Notes under the pieces: model-generated
Database searches by the model: none
The model's input: the letters and a program-made list of their open reading frames with translations, nothing else
What the model was told of the DNA's origin: nothing
Made by a program: the position numbers and the translations under genes
Shown here: positions 35,994-47,362 of the stretch, piece after piece
How positions within the stretch are numbered: the first letter of the stretch is position 1
How the letters are laid out: each line of letters begins with the position of its first letter
Assembly: GCF_014203605.1 (NCBI RefSeq)
Contig: NZ_JACHJJ010000027.1
Coordinates: 33,217 to 97,216 of the forward strand
Direction: 5' to 3'
Origin: Thiemannella venezuelensis
Lineage (GTDB): Bacteria; Actinomycetota; Actinomycetes; Streptosporangiales; Streptosporangiaceae
DNA: 64,000 nt

Positions 35994-36389
35994 TCACGCC
36001 GCGGCGGCCCCGTGGGCGCGGCGGCCGGCCCAGACCTGGCCGAGCTGCAGGACGCTCAGGCCGAACATCAGCGCGCCCAGCGGGACATGCAGGGTCTTCA
36101 CCTGCGCTATGCCCAGCGCCACCTGCGCCAGCGTGAGCGCGAAGAACCCGGCCGCGTACAGGACGGGCCCGGGTGAGCCGCCTCCCGGACGCCACGCCAG
36201 GACCGCGGCGACCAGGTGCGCCAGCGTCACGGTGAACACCCCGTACCCCGAAGCGCTGTGCAGCGCCGACCCGCCGGGCGAGGACAGCAGCAGTCCGGCG
36301 GTGACCGGTGCGGCGAACAGGGCCAGGGTCTGCAGGACGATCACGACACGCAGGAACGTGGCGTAGCCCTGCTTGCCCGTCGTGGACAT
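35994..36389 (-). CDS. Four-helix membrane protein under an ECF41-type promoter
   Basis: This 131-residue protein has four predicted transmembrane helices (LRVVIVLQTLALFAAPVTAG; GVFTVTLAHLVAAVLA; VLYAAGFFALTLAQVALGIA; VPLGALMFGLSVLQLGQVWA) and conserved His residues in LHSASGYG and TLAHL. I cannot place it firmly; it resembles small heme- or quinone-linked membrane families such as DUF6220. GAGGAG precedes ATG 36389. It is divergent from an ECF41 sigma gene and the shared region contains mirror-image ECF41-like promoters, so it is a probable sigma target. Confidence 0.8.
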   Translation of the reverse strand: MSTTGKQGYATFLRVVIVLQTLALFAAPVTAGLLLSSPGGSALHSASGYGVFTVTLAHLVAAVLAWRPGGGSPGPVLYAAGFFALTLAQVALGIAQVKTLHVPLGALMFGLSVLQLGQVWAGRRAHGAAAA

Positions 36390-36442
36390 GGGGTCTCCTC
36401 TTCTCTGGTCCGAGGCTCTGCGGCATGGTGCCTCAGTAGTCC

Positions 36443-36507
36443 GACGACGCGGCCGCCGGGAATGTGAGGCGACCGCGCGACCTCACATTCCGGAGGGCCG
36501 TCTCGTC
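36443..36507. promoter_or_regulatory. Back-to-back ECF41-type promoters
   Basis: GGAATGTGAGG and CCTCACATTCC form a perfect 11-bp inverted repeat around 11 bp. Each outward arm reads CCTCACA, and 16 bp further out is CGTC (plus strand 36504-36507; minus strand 36446-36443). Both directions therefore match the ECF41 motif TGTCACA-N16-CGTC except for the first two bases. One promoter points to the sigma gene at 36549, the other to the membrane protein at 36389. Confidence 0.78.
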
Positions 36508-36548
36508 GGTCTGATGAGAGCAACCGCGACAGAGGAAAGCCGGGGACC

Positions 36549-37589
36549 ATGACCACCCAGCCCGAGCCGGGAGACGGCCGATCCGACCCGAACCTGAGTG
36601 CGATCATGAGCGAGCGGCGTCATCTGATCAATCTCGCCTACCGCCTCCTCGGTTCCCTGTCCGACGCCGAGGACGTCGTGCAGGAGACCTACGTCCGCTG
36701 GTACGCCATGCCCCGGCAACGGCAGGACGCCGTCGGATCCCCCGGCGCCTGGCTGACGACGGTCGCCGGCCGCATCTGCCTGGACCTGCTCGGCTCGGCC
36801 CGGGCCCGGCGCGAGCGGTACGTGGGCGAATGGATCCCCGAACCGCTGCCCGACCCCGCGGAGTGGACCCCCGGGCCGTCGGACGGCACCGCGGCCGACC
36901 CCGCCGACCGGGTCACGCTCGACGAGTCGGTCAGCATGGCCTTCCTGGTCGTGCTCGAATCCATGACCCCGGCCGAGCGCGTCGCGTTCGTCCTGCACGA
37001 CGTCTTCCGCTACTCCTTCGCCGAAGTGGCGGCGACCGTCGGCCGCACCCCGGCGGCCTGCCGCCAGCTGGCCTCCTCGGCCCGCCGCCGCCTCCGCGCC
37101 GCGCAGGCGTCCACGGCCCCCGCGGCCCGGCAGGCCGGCGTCGTCAGGGACTTCAAGCGGGCCTGGGAGGCCAAGGACATCGACGCCCTCATCGGCCTGC
37201 TCGACCCCGGCGCCACGGCGATCACCGACGGCGGCGGCCTCGCCAGCGCCGGGCTCCGCCCGATCGAGGGCAGCGAGCAGATCGTCCGCTACATCCTCGC
37301 CGTCGCCGGTACGGCGCCCGCCATGACGATCCTGGAACGCACGGTCAACGGCCGGCCCGGCCTGGTGGCCCAGCAGGGCGGCGTCACCGTGACGGTGACG
37401 GCGTTCGACGTCGCAGGCGACCGGATCACGCGCATCTGGGCGGTGCGCAACCCCGACAAGCTCCGGCCCTGGACCGCGGGACCGCGGCAGCACCCGGGTG
37501 TCCCGGGGGAAGACCCGGCAGCTCACCCGAGCGGCCCGGCACCGTTCACCGCGCCGCCCGGCGGTACGGCCGCCGTACGCGAGACCTGA
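36549..37589 (+). CDS. ECF41 (SigJ-like) sigma factor, second copy
   Basis: This 346-residue ECF41 sigma factor has sigma-2 (LINLAYRLLGSLSDAEDVVQ), linker YVGEWIPEP, sigma-4 (YSFAEVAATVGRTPAACRQL), an SnoaL-like domain with DGGG followed by Leu instead of Lys, and NPDKL near residue 303. About 40 Pro-rich residues follow NPDKL, longer than usual; this tail may affect autoregulation. It is a distant paralogue of the sigma at 26496 and its promoter -35 (CCTCACA) differs from that copy's (TGTCACG), suggesting separate regulons. AGAGGAAAG lies upstream of ATG 36549. Confidence 0.94.
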   Translation: MTTQPEPGDGRSDPNLSAIMSERRHLINLAYRLLGSLSDAEDVVQETYVRWYAMPRQRQDAVGSPGAWLTTVAGRICLDLLGSARARRERYVGEWIPEPLPDPAEWTPGPSDGTAADPADRVTLDESVSMAFLVVLESMTPAERVAFVLHDVFRYSFAEVAATVGRTPAACRQLASSARRRLRAAQASTAPAARQAGVVRDFKRAWEAKDIDALIGLLDPGATAITDGGGLASAGLRPIEGSEQIVRYILAVAGTAPAMTILERTVNGRPGLVAQQGGVTVTVTAFDVAGDRITRIWAVRNPDKLRPWTAGPRQHPGVPGEDPAAHPSGPAPFTAPPGGTAAVRET

Positions 37590-38132
37590 AGCAGAGACCA
37601 TTCCCTTTGTTGTCATCCGCACACGACAAAATGTGTTTATTTTTGTCAGCGAGTGCTTGAACCTCTTTTTATGGGTGAGACTTCCGCCCATTTCCGGCGG
37701 GGCCGGGAACTGGAATGCCATATCCTCCGGACCGCCGCCCCGGGCGTCTTCCCGCAGCACCGGAAGACACCCGGGGGAGACAGGCCGCATGTGCACTCCC
37801 CGGCCCGCCGGCGGGGATGTTGACTCAGGCGCTTGGCCCTTTTCCCGGGGCGAATGCCCTCACGAAGAGCCGGGATGCCCGGGTCACTGCGGAAATCACG
37901 GCCTCCCATCCGGCCCGTCGGCGGCAAGACCGGACCCCGGTGATCTTCGATCCGCCGGCTGGAACGCGCCAGAAAAGGGAGGGGCCCCATAGCGGAGCGC
38001 TTATCTCAACATTATTTCCGCGAAGCGGATCAGAATACGATCAATGACAATTCGAATCGACTCCCGGACATTGACGGAGAATACACCTGTCTTTATTCTC
38101 GAAATAACCGGCATATCGTATTGGAGTGGCCG
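37590..38132. other. Intergenic region, 543 bp, A/T-richer ends
   Basis: No convincing gene is visible on either strand. The first 100 bases hold GACAAAA/TTTTGTC (about 37624-37648), an A/T-rich inverted repeat that may end the sigma transcript. The middle (37680-37980) is GC-rich without recognisable protein similarity in any frame. The last 60 bases contain a clear vegetative promoter for the secreted protein. Confidence 0.6.
38071..38099 (+). promoter_or_regulatory. Vegetative promoter of the secreted protein gene
   Basis: TTGACG (38071-38076), 17 bp, TATTCT (38094-38099) is the closest match to a standard housekeeping sigma promoter in this window. The start codon is 33 nt downstream with a Shine-Dalgarno GGAG. 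Strong expression is inferred. Confidence 0.8.
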
Positions 38133-38828
38133 ATGAAACGTCTCGGGAACCTCGCCGCCGCCGTCCTCCTCGCCGCCGCGGCGTCAATCCTCGCCGCGGC
38201 CCCCGCCTGGGCGGCCACCACCACGATCCACAGGGACAACGCTGCGGGCGCCGCCTACGCGGGCAAGGTGCGGGCGACGCTGATCGCGCCCGTGTCGGTC
38301 TCCACCTCGCTCGGCACCGCCACCTGCAACACCGGCAACATCGACGCCGCCATCCAGTCGGACGGCACCGCCCTGAACGTCTCGGGCTTCTCCTTCAGCA
38401 ACAGCCCCGGACCGGCGTGCCCGAACAGCGCCGGCGGCCAGTCCACCGTGAGCGCGGTGGGACTGCCGTGGAACGGGGGCAACGTCACCTACGGCGCGGT
38501 GAGCGGCGGGCGCGACGCGACCCTGACGCTCACGAATGTCAGGGTCTCCTCGGTGACCACCGGCTGGTTCGGCACCATCACCTGCGTCTACCGGGGATCG
38601 GGGGCCTCCGACAGCATCGTCCTGGACGGCTTCAACGCCGACAACGCCGCCCGCCCCGACCCCTCCGTCGACCAGGCTCAGGCCAGGGCCGTCAACTCCG
38701 GCCTCTCCAAGGTCAGTGGAAGCTTCCTGTGCCCCGGTACGGCCAGATACAGCGCCACCTTCCAGTTGCTCGGCGAGACCGTCGCCGGATCCGGCGTCTA
38801 CGACCAGAAGCTCCACATCACCTCCTGA
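38133..38828 (+). CDS. Secreted protein of unknown function
   Basis: This 231-residue protein has an N-terminal Sec signal peptide (MKRLGNLAAAVLLAAAASIL, cleavage after AWA near residue 28). The mature part is beta-rich with repeated Ser/Thr/Gly and five Cys (TATCNTG, GPACPNS, TITCVYRG, SFLCPGT), suggesting extracellular disulfides. I do not recognise a domain. GGAG lies 7 nt before ATG 38133 and the promoter is strong. The last 31 bases overlap the 3' end of the convergent transposase frame. Confidence 0.82.
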   Translation: MKRLGNLAAAVLLAAAASILAAAPAWAATTTIHRDNAAGAAYAGKVRATLIAPVSVSTSLGTATCNTGNIDAAIQSDGTALNVSGFSFSNSPGPACPNSAGGQSTVSAVGLPWNGGNVTYGAVSGGRDATLTLTNVRVSSVTTGWFGTITCVYRGSGASDSIVLDGFNADNAARPDPSVDQAQARAVNSGLSKVSGSFLCPGTARYSATFQLLGETVAGSGVYDQKLHITS

Positions 38829-39940
38829 CGGCGTTCGCCGCAGCGGTACAGCCCCTCCCCTCCGGGGGATCGGCCCGCCTCCCCGCCTCGCGCGGGAGGG
38901 GCGGGCCACAGCTGCGAGCCCTCCGTCCACAACGCCAGCGCGCACATCGCCTGGTAGACGCAGAGCAGCGCCCACACCTCCTGGGCCACCGTCTCGGCGC
39001 TCCTGGAACGCAGCACAGCCGCCGGGCCGCACCGGCCGGCCCAGGCCATCGCGCCCGCCATGTCCCACCGCCCGGCGTACCGTGCCGACAACTCGGCCAC
39101 GGGCGCCCGCCCCGGATCCGTCAGCGTCGTGACCAGCCAGTCCGTGCCCGGCCGGGGAACGACTCTGACGGGCGCGCCTCCCATCGCGGCGTGCCGGGAC
39201 AGATACGAGCCGTCCCCGAGGCGGTGCTCCACTGCGAGCCCGTCAGCCCCGGCGATCCCCCACAGCAGGTGCGCGCCGGTCGCCGCCGCCGTACGCCACA
39301 GCCCGAACCCCTCGGGACCGGACCGGGCCAGCAGCAGCGCCCCCGGTCCCAGCCTGCGCAGCGCCCGCGCCGCCAGCGTGTGCCGCTCCACCGCCGAGCC
39401 CGCGAACGTCGCGTCCACCAGCGTGTGGGTCCCGTTCTCCGCCACCGCCACGACCCGGACACAGGGGAGAGGCCTTTTCCCGTCCGGGCGGCCGAACGCC
39501 GCGTTGTCGGGGGTCCCCGGTACGGCCAGCGTCATGTCGTCCATCGTGACCGGCCACAGTCCGGCCAAGTCCTCGTCATGGGCACGGGGCGTGGGGACGG
39601 CCACGCGGTGCAGAAGCGCCCGCAGGGGCTCCGCGCCGAGCCGCGCGCGGGCCCGGCTGATCGCCGATGTGCTGGGCGCCTCCCACCGCAGGACCCTGCG
39701 GGAGCGCCACGCGAGCCCGTTCAGGAGCAGGCGCATGACCTGGTCGTAGTTCCTGTCGGGGAACATGCACAGCGCCAGGACGTAGTACATCGTCAGATGG
39801 GCCGGCAAAGCTCGTCGCCGCCTGTCCGCGCACCCGCTGGCCCGTATCACCTCGTCGAGCAGTGACACCGGGAAGGCGGATGTGAGAACACTGATCGACA
39901 AGTGGTCCGCCAGCCGTTCCTCACCCGGCCGGGTCCTCAC
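38798..39940 (-). CDS. Degenerate IS4-family transposase (intact frame, dead active site)
   Basis: The 380-residue frame has the IS4 N-terminal domain (LTSAFPVSLLDEVIRASGCA; LPAHLTMYYVLALCMFPDRN; NGLAWRS) and the DDE fold. The first Asp region is kept (VTMDDMTLAVPGTPDNAAFG, D134/D135). The second, normally LLLADRGF, reads LLLARSGPEGF, so Asp is replaced by Arg206. The YxxRWxIE...K signature reads YAGRWDMAGAMAWAG, so Glu is replaced by Ala295. The C-terminus (after about residue 340) runs into unrelated sequence overlapping the secreted-protein gene. It cannot catalyse transposition by the normal mechanism. It is a decaying element or a domesticated protein. GTG start 39940. Confidence 0.85.
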   Translation of the reverse strand: MRTRPGEERLADHLSISVLTSAFPVSLLDEVIRASGCADRRRRALPAHLTMYYVLALCMFPDRNYDQVMRLLLNGLAWRSRRVLRWEAPSTSAISRARARLGAEPLRALLHRVAVPTPRAHDEDLAGLWPVTMDDMTLAVPGTPDNAAFGRPDGKRPLPCVRVVAVAENGTHTLVDATFAGSAVERHTLAARALRRLGPGALLLARSGPEGFGLWRTAAATGAHLLWGIAGADGLAVEHRLGDGSYLSRHAAMGGAPVRVVPRPGTDWLVTTLTDPGRAPVAELSARYAGRWDMAGAMAWAGRCGPAAVLRSRSAETVAQEVWALLCVYQAMCALALWTEGSQLWPAPPARGGEAGRSPGGEGLYRCGERRQEVMWSFWS

Positions 39941-40218
39941 GTCCCTGATCGTGCCCGTGTGCGCGCCGGGTAAGCGGCGACCGGGTGAATCTCTGATTTC
40001 TTGGCGGTGTGCGCTGGAGTCCGCGGCGGGAATGCGCGGAATCTGAGTGCGGTCGCCTCGGTATCCGCGCTCCTGGACGGGCCGCCGACCGTCGCCGGGA
40101 CCTGACGGGCGGCGGCGAATTCGAACGGCTTCAGCCGCAGGCAGGCGTCGCGTTCGGCGCAGACGCGTGCCGTGCCCGCGACGATCGGCGGGCCGGCTCG
40201 TCTAGGCTGTTCCCCCGG

Positions 40219-42375
40219 ATGTTCGGGGGTACGGATTTGCCACAGATGCAGGCGCCCCATCTGGCCCGGGGGATCACCCTCGCCGTTCTGGGCGCGTTCG
40301 CGAGCGTGTACCTGCTGGCCGGGATGCCGATCGCGATCGTCGTGTTCGCGCTGCAGCTCGTCCACGTCCTGCCGGCGCTCAGGCGGTTCCGGGGAACGGT
40401 GCTGTTCGCCGTACAGGCCGGCGCCGGGTTCTGGGGCGTTCTCGCCTCCGGCGCATCCGTCGGCATGCTCGGCTTCCTGGCCGGGTCACTGCTGCTGTCG
40501 CCGCTGTGGCCGCTCGCTCCGGCGGTCGCCGTGGCGGCGGCGGTGATCGGCTCCGTCCGGTACGGCGAAGCGTCCGCCGCAGCCGACGCCACGATCACGA
40601 TGGTCCTGATCGCGCTGGTGGTCTACGGCCTGACCCGGCTCACCGAGCGGGTCGACCAGCTGCACTCGGCCAGGCTCGCCCTCGCCGTGGCCGCCGTCGC
40701 CGAGGAGCGCCTGCACATCGCCGCCGAACTGAGCGACGGTCTCGGGCGAGGCCTCACCATGATCGCCGCAGGCGGCAGGCGCGCCCTGGCCGAGCCGGAA
40801 CGCACGGCCGAGATCCTCGGACAGGTCGCGGGCACGGCACGGCGCGCCCTGGCCGAGGCGCGGACCGCCGCCTCCGGGTACCGCGCCATGTCTCTGGCGC
40901 CCGAGATCACCACCGCCCGCGCGATGCTGGCGGCCGCGGGCGTGACCGCGCACGTGCGCGTCGGCCACGCCGAACCGCTGGGGCCCGCGGGCGCGCTGCT
41001 CGCGGCCGTGCTCCGGGAGGCGGTGACCGAGGTCGTACGGCGCGGCACGGCGACGACGTGCGAGATCGAGACCGACGTGTCCGAGGGCGGAGTCCGGCTC
41101 CGCGTCTCCAACGACGGAGCCAGGACCGCGGAGGACGAGAGCCTGGGCGACCTTCCGGGCCGGGTCGCCGAGGCGGGCGGATCGCTCACCACAGGCCTGT
41201 CCTCCACCGGCCGTTTCACCGTCTCCGTCGTGCTTCCCGGCGCCGGATCCGCTCCGTCGCTCCCGCCGGACGACCGGCACGCCTCCGTTCTCTCCTTCAC
41301 CCTGCTGGCCGTCGTCCTGGCCGGGTTCAGCGCCAAGGCGCTGCTCCAGCTCCCGGCAGGCTCGCTGCCCCCGGCGGCCGCCTGTCTCGGGCTGATCCTC
41401 TTCCTGCAGCTCCGCTCGGTGTCCGGCCACCACATACGGTCGCTGGCGGTCATGGCCCTGCTCACCTATCTCCCGATCCCCGCCTTCGGCGCGGTCTGGC
41501 TGGGCGTCGCCGGTTTCCTGTCCGGCCCGCTCCTGCTGGCCTTCCCCGCGGTGCTCGCCTGGCCGCTCGTCGCCTCGGTGACGGCGAGTGCCGCGGTCAT
41601 CGGCGTCGCCCTGGGGCTGGAGCCCGCCGTGACGGTGAACTACACCGTGAGCACGCTGGTGACCGGCCTGGTCGTCCACGGGCTCCTCCGCCTGGCCCTG
41701 CTGGCGAAGGAGGTGCAGGCGGTCAAGGAGGAGCTGGCCCGCTCGGCGGTGGTCGAGGAGCGCCTGCGCGCCGCCCGGGACCTGCACGACCTGCTCGGCC
41801 ACAGCATGGCGGCGATCCTCCTCAAGTGCGAGCTGGCCAGGAGGCTCGACCCCGTCCGGGCCCGCGCCGAGATCGAGGACGTACTCGAGATGGTGGACAA
41901 GGCCGAGGCCGACCTGCGCTCCGTCTCCGGGGAGCGGCACGAGATGGCGCTGGCCGCCGAGGCGGACTCGGCGCGGTCGCTCCTGGGCGCCGCGGGCATC
42001 GAGGTCACGGTCGAGCTGAGCCACGGCCGGGTCGCCGCGGAGGTCGAGACCGTGCTGAGCACGGTGCTGCGCGAGGCGGTGACCAACGTGCTCCGGCACA
42101 GTGCCGCACGCCGCTGCACGATCACGGCGGACTGCGAGCAGGGCGAGGTACGGCTCCGCGTGCGCAACGACGGCGTGCGCCCGGCCGCGGTTCCCGCCGA
42201 GGACTCCGCCCCGGACCGGACCGCGGGGCGCCGCGGCTCTGCGGGAGTCGGCAACCTGACCACGCGGCTGGCCGCCCTCGGCGGCAGTCTCGCCACCACC
42301 CGCGACGGCGAGCGGTTCGAGATCGAGGCCCGTGTCCCCACCGCGTCCCTCGCGGTGTCCGTCCCCGCCGGCTGA
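40219..42375 (+). CDS. Tandem fused DesK-type histidine kinase with inactive first half
   Basis: This 718-residue protein contains two complete DesK/NarX-type units in a row. Unit 1: membrane helices (15-140), then ERLHIAAELSDGLGRGLTMI, where the phospho-acceptor His is Ser172, and REAVTEVVRRG, where the N-box Asn is Glu271. Unit 2: about six membrane helices (355-490), canonical RDLHDLLGHSMAAILLK with His523, N-box REAVTNVLRHSA with Asn623, and a GVGNLTTRLAALGGSL G-box. Only unit 2 should autophosphorylate. ATG 40219 follows TAGGCT by 10 nt, near-leaderless. The convergent NarL-type regulator and the MacB-like ABC genes beyond it form its functional neighbourhood. Confidence 0.88.
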   Translation: MFGGTDLPQMQAPHLARGITLAVLGAFASVYLLAGMPIAIVVFALQLVHVLPALRRFRGTVLFAVQAGAGFWGVLASGASVGMLGFLAGSLLLSPLWPLAPAVAVAAAVIGSVRYGEASAAADATITMVLIALVVYGLTRLTERVDQLHSARLALAVAAVAEERLHIAAELSDGLGRGLTMIAAGGRRALAEPERTAEILGQVAGTARRALAEARTAASGYRAMSLAPEITTARAMLAAAGVTAHVRVGHAEPLGPAGALLAAVLREAVTEVVRRGTATTCEIETDVSEGGVRLRVSNDGARTAEDESLGDLPGRVAEAGGSLTTGLSSTGRFTVSVVLPGAGSAPSLPPDDRHASVLSFTLLAVVLAGFSAKALLQLPAGSLPPAAACLGLILFLQLRSVSGHHIRSLAVMALLTYLPIPAFGAVWLGVAGFLSGPLLLAFPAVLAWPLVASVTASAAVIGVALGLEPAVTVNYTVSTLVTGLVVHGLLRLALLAKEVQAVKEELARSAVVEERLRAARDLHDLLGHSMAAILLKCELARRLDPVRARAEIEDVLEMVDKAEADLRSVSGERHEMALAAEADSARSLLGAAGIEVTVELSHGRVAAEVETVLSTVLREAVTNVLRHSAARRCTITADCEQGEVRLRVRNDGVRPAAVPAEDSAPDRTAGRRGSAGVGNLTTRLAALGGSLATTRDGERFEIEARVPTASLAVSVPAG

Positions 42376-42466
42376 GGCTCCCCCGCGCCTCGGACGGCAG
42401 GCGCCGCGGCCGTCCCCGGGCGGCCCGGTCCCCGCCTCCCGTCCCGGCCGTGCGGGTGCGGCGCGG

Positions 42467-43075
42467 TCAGATCCAGCCCGCCTGTCTCGCGATGCGCACG
42501 GCGTCGACCCGGTTGCGGGCGTTGAGCTTGGCGACGATCGCGGTGATGTAGTTGCGCACGGTCCCCGCGCTCAGGAAGAGGCGCCCGGCGATCTCGGCCG
42601 CGTCGATCCCCTCGGCCACCAGCCGGAGCACGTCGGCCTCGCGGGGGGTGAGCGGGTTGTCGGCCAGGTCCCAGGCCGTCACCGCCAGCGAGGGGTCGAG
42701 CACCCGCTCTCCGCCGGCCACCGCGCGGATGGCGGCCACCAGTTCCTCCGGCGGCGCGGTCTTCAGCAGGAACCCGTCCACCCGCGCGCCGAGCGCCCGG
42801 CGCAGATGGCCCGGCTTGCCGTACGCGGTGAGCATGAGCGTCCGGCAGCCGGGCAATCGCAGGCGGAGCTCTGCCGCGGCCGCGAGGCCGTCGAGCGCGC
42901 CGGGCATGTCGATGTCGAGCACCGCGACGTCGGGCCGGTGCAGAAGCGCGGCGGGCACCACGGCGTCGCCCGACTCGACGGCGGCGACGACCTCCAGGTC
43001 CTCCTCCAGGCCCAGCAGCACCGCCAGGGCGCCCCGGACGACGTACTGGTCCTCGGCCAACAGCACACGGATCAC
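42467..43075 (-). CDS. NarL/FixJ-type response regulator (DesR-like)
   Basis: This 202-residue protein has a receiver domain (LLAEDQYVVRGALAVLLGLE; phospho-acceptor Asp in VAVLDIDMPG; Thr in LMLTAYG; Lys in GFLLKTAPP) and a LuxR-type helix-turn-helix (LTPREADVLRLVAEGIDAAE, then LSAGTVRNYITAIVAKL). GTG start at 43075. It is convergent with the fused kinase gene and divergent from the ABC transporter, which is the likely regulated target. Confidence 0.95.
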   Translation of the reverse strand: MIRVLLAEDQYVVRGALAVLLGLEEDLEVVAAVESGDAVVPAALLHRPDVAVLDIDMPGALDGLAAAAELRLRLPGCRTLMLTAYGKPGHLRRALGARVDGFLLKTAPPEELVAAIRAVAGGERVLDPSLAVTAWDLADNPLTPREADVLRLVAEGIDAAEIAGRLFLSAGTVRNYITAIVAKLNARNRVDAVRIARQAGWI

Positions 43076-43172
43076 GGGACATGTCTACCAGTGTCCGGAT
43101 CATGACGATGTCACGGTCCCTCGATGATCACATCTCTGGCCCGGCGGACCGCAGGCCAGCAGGCTGGCAGGC

Positions 43173-43904
43173 ATGACGGACGTAGTGCGTTTGGACGCGG
43201 TGAGCAAGGTGTACGGCACGGGCCAGAGCGCGGTGGCGGCCCTGCGCGAGGTGACGGCGGGCATCCCGCAGGGGAGCTTCACCGCGGTGATGGGACCCTC
43301 GGGGTCGGGGAAGAGCACGTTTCTGCACTGCGCGGCCGGGCTGGACTCACCGTCCTCGGGCTCGGTAAAGCTGGGCGGCACCGAGCTGAGCGGGATGGAC
43401 GAGACGCGGCTGACGAAGCTGCGCAGGCAGCGGATCGGGTTCGTGTTCCAGGCGTTCAACCTGGTGCCCGCGCTGACCGTGACCGAGAACATCACGCTGC
43501 CGCTGCGGCTCTCGGGCAGCCGGGTGGATCGGGCCTGGCTCCGCGAGATCGTCTCGAGGGTCGGCCTGGACGGGCGGACCGGGCACCGGCCCGCCCAGCT
43601 CTCCGGCGGACAGCAGCAGCGGGTGGCCATCGCCCGGGCGCTGATGACCCGGCCTGAGGTGGTCTTCGGCGACGAGCCCACCGGCGCGCTCGACACGATG
43701 ACCGCCCGTGAGGTGCTGAGGCTGCTCCGCGAGGTGGTGGACGGCATGGGCCAGACCGTGGTGATGGTCACCCACGACCCGGTGGCGGCCTCCTACGCCG
43801 ACACCGTCCTGCTCCTGGCCGACGGCCGGATCGTGGACACGATGACCGCGCCGACCTCCGAGCGCGTGGCCGAGCGGATGACCAGGCTGGGAGCGTGGGT
43901 GTAA
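43173..43904 (+). CDS. ABC transporter ATPase, MacB/LolD family
   Basis: This 243-residue ATPase has Walker A GPSGSGKST, Q-loop VFQAFNLVPALTV, signature LSGGQQQRVAIARAL, Walker B VVFGDEPTGALD and the switch His in VMVTHDP. This is the type that drives FtsX/MacB permeases, mechanotransmission rather than classical import. The stop and the permease ATG overlap as TAATG. It is probably induced through the neighbouring two-component system by membrane-active compounds, as in Bce/Lia-type modules. Confidence 0.96.
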   Translation: MTDVVRLDAVSKVYGTGQSAVAALREVTAGIPQGSFTAVMGPSGSGKSTFLHCAAGLDSPSSGSVKLGGTELSGMDETRLTKLRRQRIGFVFQAFNLVPALTVTENITLPLRLSGSRVDRAWLREIVSRVGLDGRTGHRPAQLSGGQQQRVAIARALMTRPEVVFGDEPTGALDTMTAREVLRLLREVVDGMGQTVVMVTHDPVAASYADTVLLLADGRIVDTMTAPTSERVAERMTRLGAWV

Positions 43905-46333
43905 TGATCTTCTTCGCATTGCGGACGATCCGGCACCGCAAGGCCGGCTTCGCGGGCGCCTTCCTCGCCCTGATGTGCGCGGCGGCCCTGGTCTGCGCCT
44001 GCGGGATGCTGCTGGAGACCGGGCTGCGCGGCGGCGTCGCCCCCGAGCGCTACGCGGGTACCCCGATGCTCGTCGCGGGCGACCAGTACGCCCGCGAGAC
44101 GATCCGGAAGTCGGAGGGGAAGACCAAGGAGAAGGCCAAGGCCCTGTCAGAGCGCCGGTGGATCCCCGCCTCTCTCGCCGGGGAGCTGAGCCGGCTCCCG
44201 GGGGTCGAGCGGGTGGTCACCGAGGTGACCTTCCCCGTCCTGGCCGCGGGCCGGTCCTTCTGGGGGCACGGCTGGGAGTCGGCCCCGCTCACTCCGTTCA
44301 CCCTGCGCGCCGGACGCGCGCCCGGCAGCGGGAACGAACTGGTGGCGGACGCACGGGCGGGGCTGGAGGTGGGCGCCGAGGTGACCGTGGAGTCACCGGT
44401 GGGATCACGGGTCTACCGGGTGACGGGCGTCACCGCCGAGGCCCTGCCCAGCCAGGACATACTGTTCTTCGCCGCCTCCGAGGCCCGCCGCCTGGCCGGC
44501 CGCCCCGGTCTGGTCAGCGCGATCGGCGTCTTCCCCCGGTCCGGCGCGTCCCGGATCGACCCGGCCCCGGTGCTCGGCGGTGCGCTCGTCCACACCGGCG
44601 ACGAGCGCGGCGCGGCCGAGTTCCTCGACGCGGAGCAGGCACGGCTGAAGCTGGTCAGCATGGGCGGCGCCCTCGGCGGTACCGCGCTGCTGGTCGCGGT
44701 CCTCGTCGTGGTCGGCACGTTCGCGCTCTCCGTCCAGCAGCGCCAGCGGGAGATCGCCCTGCTGAGAGCGGTCGCGGCGACGCCCCGGCAGGTGCGTCGG
44801 CTGCTCGGCGGCGAGGCGCTCATGCTCGGCGCCGTCGCCGGGATCCCGGGGTCCGCTCTGGGAGTCGGCCTGGGTTTCTGGCTGCGCTCCCGGTTCGTCG
44901 CGCTGGGCGTGATGCCGGAGAACCTGCGGCTCGTGGTGAGCCCGTTCCCGGTACTCGCCGCACTCGCGGCAACCGTCCTGGCCGCCTGGACCGCCGCGCG
45001 CCTCTCCGCTCGCCGTACCGCCCGCATCCGCCCGGTCGAGGCCCTCGGTGAGGCGGCGCTGCCGGCCGCGCGCCTGCCCCGGGGACGGATGATCGCCGGA
45101 CTGCTGTGCGCCGCGGGCGGTGCCGTGCTGACGTTGGTGCTGTCGGGGCTGTCCACCGAGGCGGCATCCGGCCCTGTGACGATGTTGACCGCACTGGTGT
45201 GGACGGTCGCGGCCGCCCTGCTCGGCCAGGTGATCGCCCGGGTGGCCGTCGCGCTGCTCGGAGTGGTGCTGCGCGCCTGGCGGGTGAGCGGGTACCTCGC
45301 CGCCGCGAACCTGCGGGCCGGGTCGCACCGGATGGCCTTGGTGATCACTCCGCTCAGCCTGATGGTCGCCATGACGTGCACGATCCTGTTCGTGCAGACC
45401 ACGATGGGGCACGCCGCCCAGGAGGAGGCGGCCGCGGGTGACCGCGCCGACTACGTGCTCGGCCCGCGGGTTTCCTCCTCCGCGGCCGAGGCCGTACGCC
45501 GGGTGCCGGGCGTGGAGGCGGTCACCGAGATGCTGCACACCTCGGTCCGGGTCGGCTTGGACAAGTACGGCGCACGAGCCGTCACGCCCTCGGGGCTCCT
45601 GCTGACGCTCGACCCCGGAGTGGTCGCCGGATCGCTGCACGGGCTCGGCCCGCAGACGGTCGCCGTCAGCCGGACCGCCGCGTCCCGCCTCGGCGTGTCG
45701 GTCGGCTCGCCGCTCAGGCTCACCCTCGGCGACGGCACCCGCGCGACGCTCCGCGTCGTCGCCCTCTACGAGCGGGGCCTCGGGTACGGCGAGCTCCTCC
45801 TGGCGCACGAGCTGGTGCGCCCGCACGTCGACGATCCGTTCTCCACCGTCCTGGTCTCGGCGCCGTCGGTCTCCCGCGCGGCCCTGGAGCGGGCCGCACC
45901 GGGCGTCGCGGTGCTCGACAGGGTCCGGGCCGCCGAGGCGGGAGCGCCGAACGCCGAGGTCAACTACGTGACGATGGGCCTGATCATCGCGTTCACCGCG
46001 ATCGCCGCGGTCAACACGCTGGCGATGTCCGCCTCGGACCGCTCCCGCGAGTTCGCCCTGCTCCGCCTCGTCGGCACCACGCGCCGGCAGGTGCTGAGGA
46101 TGGCCCGTCTGGAGACGCTGACCGCGGTGCTGGTCTCGGTGGCCGTCGGCACGGTGATCTCGCTGGTCACGCTCACCGCCTTCAGCCTGGGCATGATCGG
46201 TTCGGCACGGCCGCACGTGCCGCCGCCGGCCTACCTGGCCCTGGTCGCCTCGGTGGCCGCCCTGGCCCTGGCCGCCACCGCTCTTCCCGTGCGGTTCCTC
46301 CTCCGTGCCCGCCCCGCCGAGGCGATCTCCTGA
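43904..46333 (+). CDS. FtsX/MacB-like ABC permease
   Basis: This 809-residue permease has the actinobacterial layout: an N-terminal helix (about 10-35), large extracytoplasmic domain, three helices of a first FtsX domain (about 260-390, with LSVQQRQREIALLRAVAATP), then more helices, a second extracytoplasmic domain and a second FtsX domain (about 690-805, SDRSREFALLRLVGTTRRQV). ATG 43904 overlaps the ATPase stop (TAATG), giving coupled translation. It should move or extract lipophilic compounds such as antimicrobial peptides, lipids or lipoproteins. Confidence 0.94.
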   Translation: MIFFALRTIRHRKAGFAGAFLALMCAAALVCACGMLLETGLRGGVAPERYAGTPMLVAGDQYARETIRKSEGKTKEKAKALSERRWIPASLAGELSRLPGVERVVTEVTFPVLAAGRSFWGHGWESAPLTPFTLRAGRAPGSGNELVADARAGLEVGAEVTVESPVGSRVYRVTGVTAEALPSQDILFFAASEARRLAGRPGLVSAIGVFPRSGASRIDPAPVLGGALVHTGDERGAAEFLDAEQARLKLVSMGGALGGTALLVAVLVVVGTFALSVQQRQREIALLRAVAATPRQVRRLLGGEALMLGAVAGIPGSALGVGLGFWLRSRFVALGVMPENLRLVVSPFPVLAALAATVLAAWTAARLSARRTARIRPVEALGEAALPAARLPRGRMIAGLLCAAGGAVLTLVLSGLSTEAASGPVTMLTALVWTVAAALLGQVIARVAVALLGVVLRAWRVSGYLAAANLRAGSHRMALVITPLSLMVAMTCTILFVQTTMGHAAQEEAAAGDRADYVLGPRVSSSAAEAVRRVPGVEAVTEMLHTSVRVGLDKYGARAVTPSGLLLTLDPGVVAGSLHGLGPQTVAVSRTAASRLGVSVGSPLRLTLGDGTRATLRVVALYERGLGYGELLLAHELVRPHVDDPFSTVLVSAPSVSRAALERAAPGVAVLDRVRAAEAGAPNAEVNYVTMGLIIAFTAIAAVNTLAMSASDRSREFALLRLVGTTRRQVLRMARLETLTAVLVSVAVGTVISLVTLTAFSLGMIGSARPHVPPPAYLALVASVAALALAATALPVRFLLRARPAEAIS

Positions 46334-46451
46334 TCCGCGGATCCGGTCGTCCTGAACCGGAACCCGTCCCGTCCGGGGCATCGAAGGGCCAGGAGCTGCA
46401 GGAGCTGCGCAAACGGTCGGTGATACCGCCGGTGGTCACGCCATCCGGGGA

Positions 46452-46497
46452 AACGACGAGATCCCGCCCGATCGAGGCGATCGGGCGGGATCTCGTC
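46452..46497 (-). terminator. Hairpin after tRNA-Ala copy 3
   Basis: A perfect 19-bp stem (46455-46473 with 46479-46497, loop GAGGC) is followed on the minus strand by GTTTCCCC. It matches the copy-2 stem exactly. The GGCCGTT/AACGGCC mini-hairpin again lies between stem and tRNA. Confidence 0.82.
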
Positions 46498-46532
46498 AAC
46501 GTGCTCCAGGCCGTTTCGAGAACGGCCCGCTG

Positions 46533-46605
46533 TGGAGCTATGGGGATTCGAACCCCAGACCTCCTCCATGCCATGGAGGCGCGCTACCAGCTGCGCCATA
46601 GCCCC
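46533..46605 (-). tRNA. tRNA-Ala(GGC), copy 3
   Basis: This 73-nt gene is identical in mature sequence to copies 1 and 2, with anticodon GGC and no encoded CCA. An A/T-rich upstream segment with TATGCT (about 46645-46650) probably holds its promoter. Confidence 0.97.
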
Positions 46606-46683
46606 TGGTCACCGCTCCGAGTGCTCTCGTTGCGGCGCCTGGGAAGCATATAGGGACAACGTCCCGTTCACCTAATCGACGGC

Positions 46684-46724
46684 CGTACGGCTCGCGCCCG
46701 TCACCGGCGGAGGCGAGCCGTACG
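46684..46724. terminator. Hairpin after the phosphatase gene
   Basis: CGTACGGCTCGC (46684-46695) and GCGAGCCGTACG (46713-46724) form a perfect 12-bp stem just after the stop of the histidine phosphatase gene (minus strand). There is no U-tract. Confidence 0.75.
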
Positions 46725-46729
46725 CACCG

Positions 46730-47362
46730 TCAGGACGGCGCGGCCTCGGGGCTGTCGTCGCTCTGGATCGGCTCCGGCAGGGTCCCGGCGTTGTGCTCCA
46801 TGAGGCGCCAGCCCTTGCGGCCCTCCTGCAGCACCGACCACGAGCAGTTGCCCAGGCCGCCGAGGGCCGGCCAGTGCTCCTGGGGCAGGCCCATCAGCCT
46901 GGCGATGCCGAGCCGGATCGCCGCGCCGTGGGAGACGACGACCAGCAGCCCGTCGGGGCTGAGCCGCTCGGCCCAGCGGCGGACGGAGGCCGACACCCGC
47001 TTGGCGACGTCGGCGACGTCCTCCCCGCCGGGCGCCTCCCAGGCGGCGAACTCACGGGGCCAGCCCGCGGAGATCTCTTCACGGGTGAGACCTTCCCACT
47101 CGCCGCCGCCGCGCTCGCGCAGGTCCTCGTCAACGGTCACGGACAGGCCTGTGACGCGGGCCAGCGCGTCGGCGGTGTCCGCGGCGCGCTGGAGGTCGGA
47201 GGCGACGATCAGCTCGGGGCGGAGCGTGGCGAGCATCGAGGCGGCGCGCGCGGCCTGCGCGATGCCGGTCTCGTCCAGCGGGATGTCGGTGTGGCCCTGG
47301 AAGCGCCGCTCGACGTTCCACAGGGTCTGGCCGTGTCTCAGGCAGACGACCCGGCGGCTCAT
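46730..47362 (-). CDS. Histidine phosphatase (phosphoglycerate mutase-like)
   Basis: This 210-residue protein has the catalytic RHG motif in VVCLRHGQTLWNVERRFQGH, a general-acid Glu region DLRERGGGEWEGL and the second catalytic His in LVVVSHGAAIRLG. The family removes phosphate from sugars or metabolites. In actinobacteria the copy next to rsfS is often annotated as phosphoglycerate mutase or glucosyl-3-phosphoglycerate phosphatase; the substrate cannot be decided here. It lies 79 bp downstream of rsfS on the same strand, probably one transcript. Confidence 0.93.
   Translation of the reverse strand: MSRRVVCLRHGQTLWNVERRFQGHTDIPLDETGIAQAARAASMLATLRPELIVASDLQRAADTADALARVTGLSVTVDEDLRERGGGEWEGLTREEISAGWPREFAAWEAPGGEDVADVAKRVSASVRRWAERLSPDGLLVVVSHGAAIRLGIARLMGLPQEHWPALGGLGNCSWSVLQEGRKGWRLMEHNAGTLPEPIQSDDSPEAAPS

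Follow-up and report, generated by a model that had tools for sequence, protein, structure and literature searches.

The kinase gene described here lies in a 64,000-nucleotide stretch of the Thiemannella venezuelensis genome (contig NZ_JACHJJ010000027.1, positions 33,217 to 97,216; referred to here as the window and numbered from its first letter). The gene is a single open frame with candidate start codons at 40219 (ATG), 40237 (TTG), or 40246 (ATG). Pfam placed both HisKA_3 (E 1.2e-16) and HATPase_c (E 1.1e-10) in two stretches of the 718-residue product, in agreement with the initial annotation, which described one polypeptide with two membrane-plus-kinase units. An AlphaFold2 model built from 28 sequences (mean pLDDT 82.9; pTM 0.68) predicts the same layout in both halves, in which a bundle of about six membrane helices leads into a DHp hairpin and then a CA domain. 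The best PDB matches of the predicted fold were all DesK structures (3GIE, 5IUK, and others), with DivL also listed, and DesK was the top PDB match by sequence as well. Pfam found no receiver domain, the feature that joins the two modules of a TodS-like double kinase. The features of the locus are as follows:

40182 to 40218, forward strand: first part of the block shared with close relatives (blastn); probable kinase promoter
40219 to 42375, forward strand: DesK-type histidine kinase gene with a dead and a live unit, 718 aa (ORF, Pfam, orthologues)
40243 to 40683, forward strand: unit 1 membrane helices (about six) and signalling helix (AlphaFold2 helices H9-33 to H118-191)
40684 to 40896, forward strand: unit 1 DHp hairpin, residues 156 to 226, with dead H-box (S172) (alignment to unit 2, single kinases, and DesK)
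40732 to 40734, forward strand: Ser172 codon, phospho-acceptor position (orthologue alignment)
40840 to 40863, forward strand: unit 1 DHp alpha2 stripe R208, L211, R215 (DesK R228, L231, R235)
40897 to 41253, forward strand: unit 1 CA (HATPase-like) domain, with E271 for the N-box Asn, G-box degenerate, D-box Asp kept
41287 to 41736, forward strand: unit 2 membrane helices and signalling helix (AlphaFold2 helices H350-376 to H469-542)
41737 to 41946, forward strand: unit 2 DHp hairpin, residues 507 to 576, with intact H-box (H523, D524, H528)
41947 to 42348, forward strand: unit 2 CA domain, with canonical N-box (E619, N623), D-box, and G-box
42467 to 43075, reverse strand: LuxR/NarL-type response regulator (REC and GerE; Pfam), convergent with the kinase
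43173 to 43904, forward strand: ABC transporter ATPase (LolD/MacB-like)
43895 to 46333, forward strand: FtsX-type permease, 812 aa

We collected 136 distinct double-unit ORFs overall; 116 distinct orthologues, mostly from Streptosporangiaceae in the GTDB sense, make up what we call the main lineage. When positions 36001 to 47000 were searched with blastn, close relatives aligned to the window only across approximately 40182 to 46373, indicating that the four genes for the kinase, regulator, ABC ATPase, and permease are conserved as a unit. These alignments begin at 40182 to 40202, and the segment from there to the first candidate start is probably the promoter of the kinase gene. Across the main-lineage loci, some of which have too short a flank to show one or another neighbor, we detected the regulator in 92 cases, the ATPase in 97, and the permease in 96, with side and strand constant. 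From this gene context, we presume that the convergent LuxR-type regulator is the partner of the kinase and that the ABC/FtsX exporter is the regulatory target. An IS4-family transposase gene (38798 to 39940, reverse strand) lies upstream of the kinase, outside the conserved block.

Alignment placed S172 and E271 of unit 1 and H523 and N623 of unit 2 at the phospho-acceptor and N-box positions previously claimed for them. The phospho-acceptor position of unit 1 is occupied by N (60 orthologues), S (41), D (10), E (2), G (1), T (1), or R (1), and by His in 0/116; the N-box Asn of unit 1 is likewise found in 0/116. In unit 2, the His, the Asp that follows it, the N-box Glu, and the N-box Asn are each present in 116/116. 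Unit 1 has also lost the His+1 and His+5 residues of the phosphatase motif and the Arg before the His, and its G-box is degenerate. Judged by its motifs, therefore, unit 1 is a histidine pseudokinase, and unit 2 alone carries the DesK-type His-Asp pair together with the N-box Asn. The D-box Asp of unit 1 is nevertheless retained in 115/116 orthologues, so that this unit may still bind nucleotide.

Independently assembled genomes, among them those of Planomonospora, Planobispora, Nonomuraea, Streptosporangium, and Actinomadura, show the same uninterrupted ORF, and all 116 orthologues have a dead first unit. We therefore reject both a frame error joining two genes and damage private to this copy, the two possibilities that could have undone the original description. 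When 343 genomes of the same GTDB family were searched with a profile of unit 1, about 110 contained strong matches (E 1e-80 or better), nearly all of them within frames of 600 to 1100 codons; among 395 sampled genomes of the class, matches this strong were confined to the family. In a separate scan of named genomes, unit 1 was found in Planomonospora, Planobispora, Nonomuraea, Microtetraspora, Streptosporangium, Sphaerisporangium, Actinomadura, and others, with one match in the Pseudonocardiaceae (Solihabitans). On a tree of 115 units, the first units of the main lineage formed one clade (support 100) and its second units another (support 99), which fits one ancestral fusion inherited whole.

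Selection on unit 1 had been proposed from its open frame; the evidence for it is now firmer than that. Median dN/dS values for unit 1 (TM, 0.36; DHp, 0.24; CA, 0.30) are close to those for unit 2 (0.41, 0.22, and 0.38, respectively), indicating purifying selection of similar strength on the dead unit, and invariant residues occur in both its DHp and CA domains. That unit 1 is a decaying relic, retained only through its in-frame fusion to a working kinase, would agree with the loss of its catalytic motifs and with the complete absence of the CA domain in some lineages described below. However, given its retention in 116 orthologues, a dN/dS of approximately 0.24 to 0.36, and these invariant residues, we regard this explanation as extremely improbable. 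One orthologue (Acrocarpospora corrugata; L008/L060) has kept unit 1 but has lost the kinase portion of unit 2 and, it appears, also the regulator gene; its frame continues out of phase into the ABC gene.

In crystals of the DesK:DesR complex, the docking surface for the regulator is alpha1 of one protomer (Q193, S196, L200, D203, R206); the regulator also touches alpha2' of the other protomer to a minor extent, and its Asp103 forms a salt bridge with Arg235 (PMC5231405). Residues at the DesK-equivalent positions were counted in the 116 orthologues and in single kinases. Unit 2 carries L or I at the L200 position in 116/116, E at the D203 position in 116/116, and R at the R206 position in 114/116 (L535, E538, and R541 in the window protein). 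In unit 1, the L200 and R206 residues are largely lost, the D203 position is mostly R, and core positions of alpha1 have become Gly or Ala. The alpha2 positions R228, L231, and R235, which share one helix face (i, i+3, i+7), show the reverse. R228 is R in 116/116 first units and in 0/116 second units (E95 G11 V4 A3 D2 T1); L231 is L in 115/116 first units and, among the residues listed, in 0/116 second units (mostly R, E, or M); R235 is R in 116/116 and 96/116, respectively. In unit 2 of the window protein, the stripe is accordingly altered to D560 and E563, with R567 kept. Among 86 single kinases, a baseline that takes in three first units of the two-unit family left single by truncation or splitting, R228 is present in 71, L231 in 69, and R235 in 80. 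Scored against a single-kinase profile, unit 1 had the lower alpha1 score of the two units in all 116 pairs and the higher alpha2 score in 109/116. At the level of sequence, then, degeneration is reciprocal: unit 2 retains the regulator-binding alpha1 face, and unit 1 retains the alpha2 stripe. Because the 116 orthologues share one ancestor, each of these losses may be a single old event.

This pattern bears on what the dead unit does. DivL is a dead kinase that binds phosphorylated regulator (PMC4211667), and by analogy unit 1 could be a decoy or sensor that binds the (phosphorylated) regulator without phosphorylating it and thereby tunes unit 2. The appearance of a DivL structure among the fold matches of our model and the retained D-box Asp, which leaves nucleotide binding possible, would be in keeping with such a role; however, alpha1, the main docking helix, is decayed in unit 1 at the L200, D203, and R206 equivalents, which makes it very unlikely. 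The initial annotation had instead offered two roles, a built-in dimerization partner or a second sensor. The two are compatible, since unit 1 keeps its own membrane bundle, and need not be weighed as exclusive alternatives. For the partner role, the reciprocal loss on alpha1 and alpha2 is suggestive: a unit 2 homodimer would miss the alpha2 wall, and a unit 1:unit 2 pair, combining alpha2 of the former with alpha1 of the latter, has exactly one complete site. Covariation between the units, measured by mutual information over the DHp domains, was at chance and, with a Neff of approximately 29, uninformative (32 of the 60 top pairs were inter-unit).

Alternatively, unit 2 could homodimerize across two chains, with unit 1 as a second sensor or regulatory arm that forms its own homodimer, no site being shared. 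Unit 2 does keep a complete alpha1 and CA domain, both units keep membrane bundles, and such an arrangement would permit autophosphorylation in trans. Yet each unit 2 would then face its own alpha2, from which R228 is gone in 116/116 and L231 is gone among the residues listed, both of which unit 1 keeps; a unit 1 homodimer, in turn, would be poorly based on an alpha1 core now made of Gly and Ala. In several lineages, moreover, unit 1 lacks the CA domain and still has the DHp alpha2. Taken together, these observations lead us to consider two separate homodimers unlikely.

Further features of the hairpin and the regulator were considered. The residue after the conserved Lys of the regulator, equivalent to Asp103 of DesR, is Thr in 102/106 main-lineage regulators; thus, the exact DesK salt bridge does not explain the invariance of R215, which weighs against the partner role. 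The DesR row in this alignment served only as an anchor. In regulators of other two-unit lineages, the same position is Asp or His. The charges at the D203 position (unit 2, E; unit 1, mostly R) and the R228 position (unit 2, mostly E; unit 1, R) look as if swapped as a pair, but we do not claim a salt bridge between them because by hairpin counting the residues lie about two turns apart. DHp loop length was also tried as a marker of cis or trans autophosphorylation and allowed no call (28, 31, and 26 for unit 2 loops; 31 for DesK).

We therefore favor, with a probability of roughly 0.6, the reading that the two units of the 718-residue protein make up a fused pseudo-heterodimeric sensor kinase that has a single composite active site; what points to the pairing is the pattern of retained and lost residues. 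Under this reading, the DHp hairpins of units 1 and 2 would together form a single four-helix bundle, in the simplest case within one chain, and only one of its two pseudo-symmetric active sites would be complete. Unit 2 alpha1 would contribute H523, the phosphatase residues D524 and H528, and the regulator-docking face, and unit 1 alpha2 (R208, L211, R215) would form the opposite wall. The CA domain of unit 2 would phosphorylate H523, the phosphate would then move to the convergent LuxR-type regulator, and the regulator would be dephosphorylated at the same composite site through D524/H528; it probably controls the neighboring ABC/FtsX exporter. Unit 1 would add its own membrane bundle, such that two sensor bundles feed one catalytic site. 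The odds seem balanced that, in such a split site, the dead half keeps only the alpha2 wall of the DHp domain and a sensor, with alpha1 and the catalytic domain left to the live half.

Comparison with DesK raises a difficulty for the fused pseudo-heterodimer. In the phosphotransferase structure of DesK, the CA domain contacts alpha1 of the other protomer (PMC5231405). If units 1 and 2 pair, the CA domain of unit 2 must, unlike in that contact, act on H523 in cis; the literature on DesK that we searched contained no statement on cis versus trans autophosphorylation. DesK in the phosphotransferase state is also asymmetric, with one regulator bound per dimer (PMC5231405), so that the fused kinase would fix an asymmetry that DesK adopts transiently.

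Degenerate first units are not confined to the main lineage. They were also found in group A (L081 and ten relatives), group B (L044, L045, L087), L015, a second locus of L038, L221, L244, L245, L246, L296, L299, and L303. In most of these dead-live lineages the CA domain of the first unit is wholly lost; L015 still has the His of unit 1 but neither the Asp after it nor a CA domain. Even without a CA domain, the degenerate unit retains R228 and R235 in all other lineages except L299, in which it is alpha2 of the degenerate unit that has been lost. The live unit lacks at least one stripe residue in group A, group B, L015, L244, L245, L246, and L296. L221, L303, and the second L038 locus are exceptions: their first unit is dead, yet the alpha2 stripe of the second is intact. 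Thus, the other two-unit lineages mostly agree with the reciprocal pattern and a few do not. Relatives in which both units are canonical do exist (L010, L013, L220, L240); they keep R228 and R235 in both units, and those placed on the tree (L010, L013, L220) are separate lineages.

The dead-live layout recurs in several actinobacterial lineages and possibly arose repeatedly. An AU test on the live units did not reject a single origin of four dead-live lineages (P = 0.17). If the halves of such a fused heterodimer do split one active site, for which we see about an even chance, a half-of-sites asymmetry that is transient in homodimeric kinases would be fixed in the gene. An AlphaFold2 model of a lineage without the first CA domain was set aside (mean pLDDT 59; pTM 0.39). 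Other arrangements were encountered as well. The genome from which the window derives encodes a second two-unit kinase (L045, G000:C12) whose dead first unit, like that of L044, lacks a CA domain, and a response regulator adjoins L045. In L046 (G017) the order is reversed, with unit 1 live and Q in place of H at the phospho-acceptor of unit 2. L010 (G029) has two nearly identical live units, apparently from a recent in-frame tandem duplication, and may be a snapshot of how such fusions begin.

Several elements of this architecture are already documented. Dead kinases are known, as are a heterodimer in which kinase and pseudokinase are separate chains, a form of ChrS that is a pseudokinase, and a chain with two active modules. 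DesK of Bacillus subtilis shares the domain fold, H-box type, polytopic membrane sensor, and LuxR/NarL-type regulator with the window protein but has a single unit, and its homodimer is symmetric or transiently asymmetric; the window protein has two fused units, the first of them dead. In group A Streptococcus, the kinase FasB and the proposed pseudokinase FasC pair via their DHp domains and share one regulator (PMC12675982), as the two units here would. FasB and FasC are, however, separate polypeptides, and FasC carries a likely phosphorylated His (PMC12675982), whereas the dead unit of the window protein has neither a His nor a canonical ATP site. DivL (PMC4211667), RocA (PMC7028121), and ChrS_CA-fs (PMC9491836) are kinase-like proteins that act without kinase activity, some of them by interacting with a live kinase, but all are separate proteins and none is fused to the live kinase that it regulates. 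TodS-like double kinases do have two histidine kinase modules per polypeptide; in contrast to the window protein, TodS has no membrane helices and has a receiver domain between its modules, and both of its His residues are needed for the phosphorelay (PMC4861429). Full-text searches of a library of open-access papers turned up no fused dead-live histidine kinase.

Histidine kinases are treated as symmetric homodimers, in which the contribution of each protomer is difficult to disentangle. In this family, evolution appears to have separated the protomer roles, with one complete and one stripped half in each chain, across more than 100 species. Should units 1 and 2 indeed pair, these proteins would provide a natural single-chain system in which each part of the regulator site could be assigned to one protomer or the other, and in which it could be asked whether a single phosphorylatable His suffices and whether autophosphorylation runs in cis. 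Some eukaryotic kinases have a built-in pseudokinase, and the fused histidine kinase would then be their counterpart among bacterial two-component systems.
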